This document shows, one piece after another, positions 1,812 to 56,446 of a DNA stretch of 64,000 nucleotides. A program made the translations under genes and the position numbers. Source of the DNA: Selenomonadales bacterium (GTDB lineage Bacteria > Bacillota > Negativicutes > Sporomusales > UBA7701); contig JARKPR010000003.1 of assembly GCA_029975165.1 (NCBI GenBank), forward strand, positions 62,001 to 126,000. The letters run 5' to 3'. Below the pieces are notes generated by a model. The model was not told the DNA's origin and ran no database searches. It saw nothing but the letters and a program-made list of their open reading frames with translations. How positions within the stretch are numbered: position 1 is the first letter of the stretch; each line of letters starts with the position of its first letter.

Positions 1812-1944
1812 TTTGGTTTCCTTTCCGGAGCGAGTTTCCTTTTCCAGATTATTCCCATGCCGGCCGGCAAAATCCTGCCGGCGGAAGAAATGTTTGTTTC
1901 GCCGGGAAACAAAAAAAGAAGCAGACGGTGCTGCTTCGGGGTTT

Positions 1945-9194: not shown

Positions 9195-9317
9195 ATGGCC
9201 GTTCAGAAGCCCCCAGATACAAGGCGCGACGAGGCTGACACCGAAAGCGTACACGGGACGTACGCTGAGGATGGCAGCCGAGGAACAACGCCGTAGATGG
9301 GGGCTGCTGAGCGGCCA
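9195..9317 (-). repeat. Family A palindromic element, copy A3
   Basis: Arms TGGCCG.TCAG and CTGA.CGGCCA, with landmarks AGATACAAGGCGC and AACGCCGTAGATGGGGGC. The inner stem AGCGTAC/GTACGCT sits in the middle. It starts 7 nt after the stop codon of the GGDEF gene. Confidence 0.75.
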
Positions 9318-15126: not shown

Positions 15127-15746
15127 GGCTGTCTCCTTCCCTGGGCCGCGCGGGCGGCGGCGACGAAGGCGTGGATTTTTTCCGGGTCTTTGGCGCCGCC
15201 CGTTTCGACGCCGCCGGAGACGTCGACGCCGGCGGGGGCGAGGAGGCGGACTGCTTCGCCGACATTGGCGGCGGTGAGGCCGCCGGCGACGATGTAGGGG
15301 GTGGGCAGGCGGGCGGCGGTGGCCGCGGCTTGCCGCCAATCGAAGGCGATGCCGGTGCCGCCGGCCTGGCCGGGGACGAGGGTGTCGAGGAGGAGGAAGG
15401 CGGCCGGGTAGGCGACGGCGGCGGCGGGGTCGAAGCCGGGGCCGACGGGCAGGGTTTTGATGATCGGCCGGCCGACGGCTTTGCAGTAGGCGGGGGGTTC
15501 GCCGCCGTGGAGCTGGACGTAGTCGAGGCGGCAGCGGCGGGCGATGTCGCGGACGAGGGCGAGGGGCTGGTCGACGAAGACGCCGACGCGGCCGATGCCT
15601 GGTACCTGGCGGGCGATGGCGGCGGCGTCTTCGACGTTTATCCGCCGCCGGCCGGGAGCGAAGACGAAGCCGATGAGGTCGGCGCCGGCGGCGTGGGCGG
15701 CGCGGGCGGCGGCGAGGGTGGTTATGCCGCAGATTTTTATGATAAT
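15111..15746 (-). CDS. trpF: Phosphoribosylanthranilate isomerase with non-ATG (probable ATT) start
   Basis: 211 aa from an ATT at 15746-15744. The protein opens IIKICGIT, the family's signature N-terminus, so the start must lie here, yet no ATG, GTG or TTG exists nearby in frame. GGGGAGGG sits 7 nt before the ATT; the neighbouring ATC and ATA codons are alternatives. Other motifs: [40 protein letters not shown] and AGGLTAANV. The frame is intact, stops at TAG 15111, and overlaps trpD by 10 bp and trpC by 16 bp. Automated callers restricted to ATG/GTG/TTG may miss or truncate it. Confidence 0.88.
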
Positions 15747-16768
15747 GGCGATCCCTCCCCTGTTTCTGCGCCGAAGCGGCGGAGGGCTTCGAGCTTGGCG
15801 AGGGCGGCGCCGCCGTCGATGCTGGCGGCGGCGAGGGCCAGGCCTTCGCGGAGGTCGGCGGCTTTGCCGGCGACGACGAGGGCGGCGGCGGCGTTGAGGA
15901 GGACGATGTCCCGCCGGCCGCCCTGTTCGCCGCCGAGGATGGCGAGGATGATGGCGGCGTTGTCGGCGGGGGCGCCGCCGCGGTAGAGGGCGCTGTCGCC
16001 GTGGAAGCCGTAGGCGGCGGGGTCGAGGAGGTAGGATTTTACTTGGCCGTCAACGACTTCGGCGATTTTGGTGGGGGCGGCGGCGGAGATTTCGTCGAGG
16101 CCGTCGAGGCTGTGGACGACCATGGCCCGCTTGGCGCCGAGCCTGAGGAGAACTTCGGCGACTTTGCCGGTGATGGCGGGGTCGTAGACGCCGACGAGCT
16201 GGCGGGGGGCGCCGGCGGGGTTGGTGAGGGGGCCGAGGAGGTTGAAGACGGTGCGGAAGCCGAGCTCGCGCCGCGATTTGGCGACGTGGCGCATGGCGGG
16301 ATGGTGGCGGGGGGCGTAGAGGAAGCCGATGCCGATCGTGTCGATGGCGCGGGCGACGGCTTCTTTGGGGAGGTCGATGCGGACGCCGAGGGCTTTGAGG
16401 ACGTCGGCGCTGCCGCAGGGGCTGGACATGCCGTGGTTGCCGTGCTTGGCGACGGCGACGCCGCAGCCGGCGACGACGAGGGCGACGGCGGTGGAGATGT
16501 TGAAGGTTTTGCGGCCGTCGCCGCCGGTGCCGCAGGTGTCGAGGACGTCGCCGCTGCGGCAGTCGACGCCGACGGCGAAGTGGCGCATGGCGCCGGCGAA
16601 GGCGGCGATTTCTTCGCTGGTTTCACCTTTCATTTTGAGGGCGGTGAGGAAGGCGCCGATCTGGGTATCGCTGACTTCGCCGGACATGATGGCGGCCATG
16701 GAGCGGCCGGCTTCGTCGGGGGAGAGGTTGTCGCCGGCGGCCAGGCGGCCGAGGGATTCTTTAAGCAT
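15737..16768 (-). CDS. trpD: Anthranilate phosphoribosyltransferase
   Basis: 343 aa, first gene of the operon. It transfers the phosphoribosyl group of PRPP to anthranilate. The CGTGGDG PRPP loop and the [10 protein letters not shown] motif are standard. The KHGN loop reads [17 protein letters not shown], where most family members have KHGNR.VSSKSGSADVL, so a usually conserved Arg and a Lys/Ser are replaced. The rest of the protein looks normal and the frame is intact. The start ATG lies 38 nt downstream of repeat B2, itself downstream of a Trp T-box. Confidence 0.94.
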
Positions 16769-16805
16769 GGTTTTTACCTCCCTGTTTTCGATATGTAAAA
16801 TAAAG

Positions 16806-17061
16806 ACTCTGTTCGTAGCCGGTGCCTATGTGAGAGACAGCAGACTCCGGCTCCGTAGCTCCGGAAGCACGCGCCATAGGCTTGGGTCTTGCGCCGCTGG
16901 CACCGTCGCCAACAGTCTCCTGACTGATGGCTCCTCGCCCGGCCGTCCATGGCCGGGCGTGCTGCAGCGCTAAGACCGCTTCGCCAACGGCGCGTAGCTT
17001 CTTCCGCAAAGTCGCCGGAATCTGCTGTCTCTCACAGATCGACGGCGCTTACGAATAGAGC
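16806..17061 (-). repeat. Family B structured element, copy B2 (trp operon leader)
   Basis: The outermost stem pairs CTCTGTTCGTA with TACGAATAGAG; the next stem pairs GTGAGAGACAGCAGACTCCGGC with GCCGGAATCTGCTGTCTCTCAC. Inner stems GGTCTT/AAGACC and GGAAGC.ACGCGCC/GGCGCGTAGCTTC surround the conserved core. It lies between the T-box terminator and trpD, so any trp transcript that reads through carries it. Confidence 0.8.
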
Positions 17062-17062
17062 T

Positions 17063-17354
17063 AAAATAAAAAGCCATTTCACCCGTAGGGGCGAAATGGC
17101 TCGCGGTACCACCCTGTTCGGAAAGCATGGCTTTCCCTCGGTTCGGATACGGGACAGGCGTCCTTATATCCTAGCCGGGTAACGGCGGCGGCCGGCTCTT
17201 CCTACTTGCCGAGGCGTTCGGGGAGCAATTCCCAGGTCCATTCGCTGCGCTTTTCCGGCCGGTCGTCACACCCCCGGTCGCCCGGTCACCGGCTCGCTGG
17301 ACGGAAGGCTGCACAGGTACTCGTCCTGTTCATCACTGTTGGTTGTTTGGATTT
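17063..17354 (-). ncRNA. Tryptophan T-box leader of the trp operon
   Basis: On the minus strand the T-box sequence TGGTACCGCG (17111-17102) is followed by a terminator hairpin AGCCATTTCG/CGAAATGGCT and a T-rich run. Upstream lies stem I with the AGCGAGCC element and a specifier loop containing GAATGGACC (UGG at 17240-17238, the Trp codon). T-box leaders sense uncharged tRNA and antiterminate, here in response to tryptophan starvation. Boundaries are approximate. Confidence 0.92.
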
Positions 17355-56179: not shown

Positions 56180-56446
56180 GGCTCTGTTCGTAGCCAGTGT
56201 TGGTTTTGCCTCTGTGAGGGACAGCCGACTCCGGCTCCGTAGCTCCAGAAGCACGCGCCGTAAGGCTTGGGTCTTGCGCCGCTGCACCGTCGCCAACAGT
56301 CTCCTGACTGATGGCTCCTCGCCCGGCCGTCCATGGCCGGGCGTGCTGCGGCGCTAAGACCGCTTCGCCAACGGCGCGTAGCTTCTTCCGCAAAGTCGCC
56401 GGAATCTGCTGTCCCTCACAGGTCAACAACGTTAACGAACAGAGCC
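56180..56446 (-). repeat. Family B structured element, copy B3 (longest)
   Basis: Outermost stem GGCTCTGTTCGT/AACGAACAGAGCC, then CTGTGAGGGACAGC/GCTGTCCCTCACAG and CTCCGGC/GCCGGAA. The core of about 63 nt is identical to B2. The element begins one base after the dppC stop codon and ends 20 bp before the M14 start, so it occupies the whole gap inside the operon. Confidence 0.8.

Follow-up and report, generated by a model that had tools for sequence, protein, structure and literature searches.

The three large structured elements in the window, a 64,000-nt stretch of a Selenomonadales genome, are by sequence and model score copies of the catalogued TwoAYGGAY RNA (RF01731), and the mobility of this family in the studied genus is well supported. 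The best reading, to which we give about an even chance, is that of a mobile, multi-copy TwoAYGGAY RNA that binds CsrA.

The initial annotation had described three copies, B1 (1945-2162), B2 (16806-17061) and B3 (56180-56446), with a core of about 63 nt and flanking stems that differ but still pair. Sequence comparison located all three copies, although the start of B2 shifts by one base when its outer arms are included. The core is near-identical among the copies, B1 departing through a single additional base in its second loop. B2 and B3 share 66 identical bases and are 94% identical over a 162-nt block; the identical bases common to all three copies number 42. The flanking stems were found in B1, B2 and B3 and their pairing holds, with one mismatch in the outer stem of B2. 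The element as a whole is a hairpin of roughly 256 nt.

All three copies reach or exceed the gathering score of RF01731, so the annotation was wrong in recognising no known class. It had named a match to a known Rfam family as evidence against its own reading; RF01731 is such a match, and the element also acts as a dispersed repeat. The match lies on the minus strand in each copy, opposite to the strand read before, and the loops described in the annotation are thus the reverse complement of the RNA loops. Across the window's genome the RF01731 model gave 17 matches, 12 of them above the gathering score. A novel class of structured RNA outside the known families would be in keeping with the strong covariation described below, but it is already refuted by the Rfam scores of B1-B3 and of those 12 matches and keeps next to no probability. 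A CRISPR repeat (RF01322) at the core hairpin was rejected at 22.8 bits against a threshold of 45. The window's copies have the same two-hairpin core within an outer stem as the Rfam family; they differ in a shorter second loop and in a stem that runs past the part covered by Rfam, and the genus stands apart through its 21-42 copies per genome and its insertion polymorphism.

Table 1 Features of the three TwoAYGGAY copies and their surroundings, in window coordinates
Feature	Position	Strand	Basis and remarks
B2, whole hairpin element including outer arms	16805..17061	-	Sequence and fold; sited in the leader between T-box and trpD
B2, part under Rfam RF01731 (TwoAYGGAY)	16856..17009	-	cmscan 52.9 bits, gathering score 43
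B1, part under Rfam RF01731	1976..2128	-	cmscan 59.0 bits; outer arms at about 1945-2162
B3, part under Rfam RF01731	56240..56393	-	cmscan 57.4 bits; outer arms at about 56180-56446
B2 hairpin 1, loop AUGGAC with C-G closing pair (CsrA-type ANGGAN hexaloop)	16936..16959	-	Fold, coordinates checked
B2 hairpin 2, loop AGGA, shorter than AYGGAY	16908..16931	-	Fold, coordinates checked
Candidate target-site duplication, left copy, 9 bp, TAAAATAAA	16796..16804	.	Direct repeat flanking B2
Candidate target-site duplication, right copy, 9 bp, TAAAATAAA	17062..17070	.	Direct repeat flanking B2
T-box leader, neighbour upstream of B2 and trpD, outside the element	17084..17342	-	RF00230, 97.3 bits
trpD-like gene (anthranilate phosphoribosyltransferase), 3' neighbour of B2	15737..16768	-	Pfam PF00591 and PF02885, context
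Terminator-like hairpin just 3' of B1 in RNA direction	1918..1937	-	Pattern scan, 1 against a shuffle mean of 0.9, not significant alone

Folding of B2 on the minus strand (16795-17066) predicts one long hairpin of -163.7 kcal/mol (z -12.3 against 200 shuffles) with two hairpins close to its tip, looped by AUGGAC and AGGA. Since the plus strand folds nearly equally well (z -11.8), the strand is not decided by folding alone. The structured RNA family that the annotation had proposed is supported by covariation. In an alignment of 93 related copies from 86 chosen loci (E ≤ 1e-20), fitted to the structure and hence favouring covariation, 93.1% of cells were paired and 22 of the 40 modelled pairs had changed on both sides. 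Such changes filled 338 cells compared with 101.8 in shuffles, and none of 500 shuffles was as high on any of five measures. Sliding the partners by 1-3 columns lowered pairing in this alignment to 29-40%. An unfitted MAFFT alignment of 32 copies had changes on both sides in 34 of 50 predicted pairs.

The strand was addressed by aligning the arms of the outer stem under a score that makes no difference between G-U and A-C, in 91 of the 92 copies that have at least 100 bits (from 149). G-U outnumbered A-C by 89 to 46 (two-sided p 0.0003, pairs taken as independent) and, counted per copy, by 38 to 17 (one-sided p 0.003), both values being optimistic because the copies are related. Counts were 22 and 6 in the 30 ungapped, well-paired stems, 18 and 9 in the next helix inwards and 7 and 2 in the GGA hairpins. 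Split by genome, the ratios are 25:7, 24:11, 14:10 and 16:8, and 10:10 in the window's own genome. This bias, more weakly established than family membership, covariation or copy number, lends moderate support to selection on RNA of the Rfam strand, though not in the window's genome alone.

Copies were counted with a model of our own, for which 31 copies were used, including two of G069. At E ≤ 0.01 it found 156 copies in five genomes of the genus: 21 in the window's genome (G000), 23 in G087, 39 in G054, 31 in G131 and 42 in G079. We analysed 149 of them further. A search of 300 genomes of the class with RF01731, in which 9 candidates were scored per genome so that copy counts are lower bounds, gave a match in 10 genomes. 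Six of these, five of the studied genus and G069 of the same order, scored above the cut-off; the other four (G033, G279, G285 and G286) scored below it and may not be true carriers. The exact core pattern, in a search of genome contigs that may omit the window's own records, occurred in 11 stretches, all from the uncultured Selenomonadales SL1-B47 and D110_maxbin.017. A second dispersed repeat, GCGTACGTTCCGAGTACGC near CGCCTNGYATCTGGGGGCTTCTGAACG, lies on the minus strand of the window at 2329-2347 and 9200-9265, where it gave no Rfam match at the gathering score. This repeat sits 5' of some TwoAYGGAY copies, and a 17-mer taken from it occurs in 16 of 214 loci, with some overlap among the loci.

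As evidenced by the trpD site, copies differ in position between close relatives. B2 lies between the T-box and the start codon in the window's genome, while the four congeners (G087, G079, G054 and G131) and the outgroup (G091) lack a copy at this site. Our model found nothing at the trpD site of these five relatives, its sole other hit in the loci being one of 13 bits elsewhere in L158. Two T-box leaders precede trpD in the four congeners and the outgroup (L156-L160), compared with one in the window's genome. B2 is flanked by a candidate target-site duplication (Table 1), and the empty sites carry a T-rich stretch that is similar, not identical, to its left copy. The ends of B2 form imperfect inverted repeats, and the exact pattern of this motif was found only in B2 and B3 among the fetched loci. 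No target-site duplication was seen at B3, and the gene next to B3 was not found in relatives. Common ends were not found among the other copies aligned, and the flanks at other pairs of filled and empty sites are too diverged to fix the ends precisely. Elsewhere along a syntenic stretch, several further sites hold a copy in one genome and are short in a second. Opposite the copy at G087 C1:3175109, the short site of G079 keeps one stem arm and is therefore a deletion remnant rather than an original empty site; loss contributes too.

Sites were also compared through shared flanks, with more than 200 bases of flank and matches of at least 250 bases required on both sides, so that copies near contig ends were missed. 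For 39 of the 149 copies the site is occupied in the same orientation in another genome; including 14 opposite-orientation pairs brings the total to 48 copies at 17 distinct sites. Core identity reaches 83% or more in only 8 of the 30 same-orientation pairs, so that different subtypes often occupy one and the same intergenic site. In the window's genome a single copy of the 21 was found at a site shared with another genome. At one site shared by G079 (C4:101587) and G087 (C1:3162677) the core is 98% identical and the flanks 84-87%, hinting at strong constraint or gene conversion. Different subtypes also lie close together in opposite orientation, as in L098 (G131 C42:37409- and 37636+), L149 and L143.

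Bacterial MITEs and REP-like repeats are short, mostly intergenic, multi-copy and polymorphic. TwoAYGGAY copies resemble them in all four respects, in the inverted repeats of B2 and B3 and in the candidate duplication at B2. Insertion polymorphism among close relatives, as expected of a MITE, is present at the trpD site, whereas inverted repeats together with a duplication were not found in most copies, whose ends are resolved in part. An ISL3-type MITE, which we take to be marked by an inverted repeat and an AT-rich 8-bp duplication, fits B2. We rejected this label for the family since B3 has no duplication and the exact inverted-repeat motif occurs in no other fetched copy. More generally, the element may be purely selfish, MITE-like or mobilised as a hairpin, its structure and GGA loops kept for a mobility machinery acting in trans and not for CsrA. 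Copy number, a near-random orientation (see below), filled and empty sites, the shared use of 17 intergenic sites with its 14 opposite-orientation pairs, the terminal inverted repeats of B2 and B3 and the 9-bp candidate duplication all fit such an element. Less easily fitted are the restriction of the inverted-repeat motif to B2 and B3, the lack of common ends in the other aligned copies and the fact that no transposase was tied to the family, an incidental result and not one of a dedicated search. The family also differs from MITEs in that no parent element was recognised and in its strand-biased pairing, as the excess of G-U over A-C suggests selection on RNA, yet the same excess would be expected if movement involved an RNA step. 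We regard the purely selfish element as unlikely on balance, if a serious contender.

Most copies lie between genes: 7 of the 149 share more than 30 bases with a predicted gene, and the other 142 do not. For the 107 copies with both neighbours called by a simple codon-usage gene caller, 48 are sense to both, 33 antisense to both, 19 lie in convergent and 7 in divergent intervals; for copies of at least 100 bits these numbers are 32, 23, 11 and 4. Sense against antisense gives p 0.12, which is near random, so many copies may be silent. The three copies in the window have neighbours on their own strand. B1 is flanked by an O6-methylguanine-DNA methyltransferase-like gene and a 2-thiouracil desulfurase-family gene, and B3 by an oppC-like permease gene and an M14 peptidase-like gene. 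Since these genes, trpD and the RNA are all on the minus strand, all three copies could be transcribed by read-through. A scan for sigma-70-like promoters found none at B1 or B3; for B2 the minus-strand candidate that ranks highest is situated upstream of the T-box, and the plus strand offers two weaker ones.

Rfam files RF01731 under the type 'Cis-reg', and a leader or 3' UTR element acting in cis to control a neighbouring gene would suit this label, the position of B2 between T-box and trpD and the slightly higher number of sense copies. However, the sense bias is not significant, divergent intervals, where promoters lie, are the rarest class (7 against 19 convergent), and trpD has no element in five relatives. 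Weinberg et al. (2010), in the part of their report that lists the motif, give TwoAYGGAY as a probable RNA and mark it 'n' (probably not) for both cis-regulatory and riboswitch function (PMC2864571). Control of the neighbouring gene in cis is therefore improbable as the family's role.

The reading in which the RNA binds CsrA draws on the two loops. In the model alignment GGA is present in loop 1 of 92 of the 93 copies, in loop 2 of 87 and in both of 86, and both loops are exactly AYGGAY in 60. Three rows have an insert in the loop 1 stretch, and in four of the loop 2 misses the loop is shifted. Of the 93 rows, 83 allowed the distance between the two GGA to be measured, and it is 25-27 nt in every one. 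In the window, loop 1 is AYGGAY in all three copies, and loop 2 is AUGGA in B1 and AGGA in B2 and B3. In some copies (e.g. L142:2001-2222 and L099:2001-2221) hairpin 1 contains or is preceded by an additional module of about 55 nt, and two of these copies carry CTCTTAGCGCTT...CCCCTTGCGGG.

A link between TwoAYGGAY and CsrA was reportedly proposed by Gardner and Eldai. TwoAYGGAY contains matches to the CsrA-binding motif, and CsrA-binding sRNAs were proposed for Clostridia in 2014, with validation then in progress according to the relevant passage (PMC4333381). In the literature checked, which includes sources available in part, we found no experimental test of this proposal, and a later one may exist. 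As summarised in a section of a CsrA review, the RNA bound by RsmE presents an ANGGAN hexaloop, and one CsrA dimer bridges sites 10-63 nt apart, best above 18 (PMC7652899), a range that includes the spacing observed here. Judging from this resemblance and geometry, TwoAYGGAY would bind CsrA. Against this stands hairpin 1, whose stem in the window's copies has 8-9 GC-rich pairs, compared with at most 4 in most SELEX hairpins, and the same section considers very stable structure perhaps a disadvantage (PMC7652899). The reduced loop 2 of the window's copies and the equal numbers of G-U and A-C in the window's genome also argue against a CsrA-binding RNA. The family shares with the CsrA-sequestering sRNAs CsrB, RsmY and RsmZ the GGA in hairpin loops and two sites at bridging distance. 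It differs from them in that its copies are dispersed and mobile with two sites each and stable stems, in that no promoter of its own was found at B1 or B3, and in that its CsrA binding is a prediction.

The window's genome has a single csrA gene with fliW adjoining. FliW protein antagonises CsrA in other bacteria, as stated in part of one report (PMC4894983), so that an RNA antagonist of CsrA would not be required. We found csrA in 8 of the 10 genomes with an RF01731 match, the window's genome counted, and in the non-carrier G091; as 163 of the 300 class genomes have it, this co-occurrence is hardly informative. Neither csrA nor fliW was found in G054 (39 copies) and G131 (31 copies). In G054 flgL, the gene before fliW-csrA by the order in the window's genome, runs off the contig end at base 1. 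G131 is listed as 87% complete and gave no close flgL match (best 32% identity), and flhA is present in both genomes. The absence of csrA from these two assemblies was therefore dropped as counter-evidence.

Taken as a mobile, CsrA-binding RNA, TwoAYGGAY would have multiplied in the genus as a mobile but non-autonomous repeat that inserts between genes. Its Rfam-named strand would most likely be transcribed when neighbouring genes are read through, the trpD leader being an example. Once transcribed, a copy would fold into a long hairpin and expose two GGA loops, whose separation of about 26 nt could be bridged by a single CsrA dimer. The likely effect would be that CsrA is bound and titrated and, locally, that a CsrA site is placed in the UTR of the host transcript. 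Further observations that do not sit easily with this scheme are the near-random orientation of the copies, the promoters not found at B1 and B3 and the duplication seen at B2 and not at B3.

The function of TwoAYGGAY was not known when it was described in 2010, as far as the portion of that paper on the motif goes (PMC2864571). In the literature searched we did not find in print the scale and mobility seen in this genus together with a retained two-loop geometry. The 156 copies in five genomes amount to a natural mutational scan, in which the stems vary while most copies retain the GGA loops and the distance between them. A family filed as 'Cis-reg' can thus act as a mobile repeat, which bears on the annotation of its copies. 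A further step, which we consider doubtful, would be that a regulator-binding RNA has turned into a mobile repeat whose copy number (21-42 per genome) sets the capacity to titrate CsrA and which introduces CsrA sites into UTRs of the host, for instance the T-box-controlled trpD leader. If true, this would be a bacterial counterpart to the spread of regulatory RNAs through SINE-like elements.
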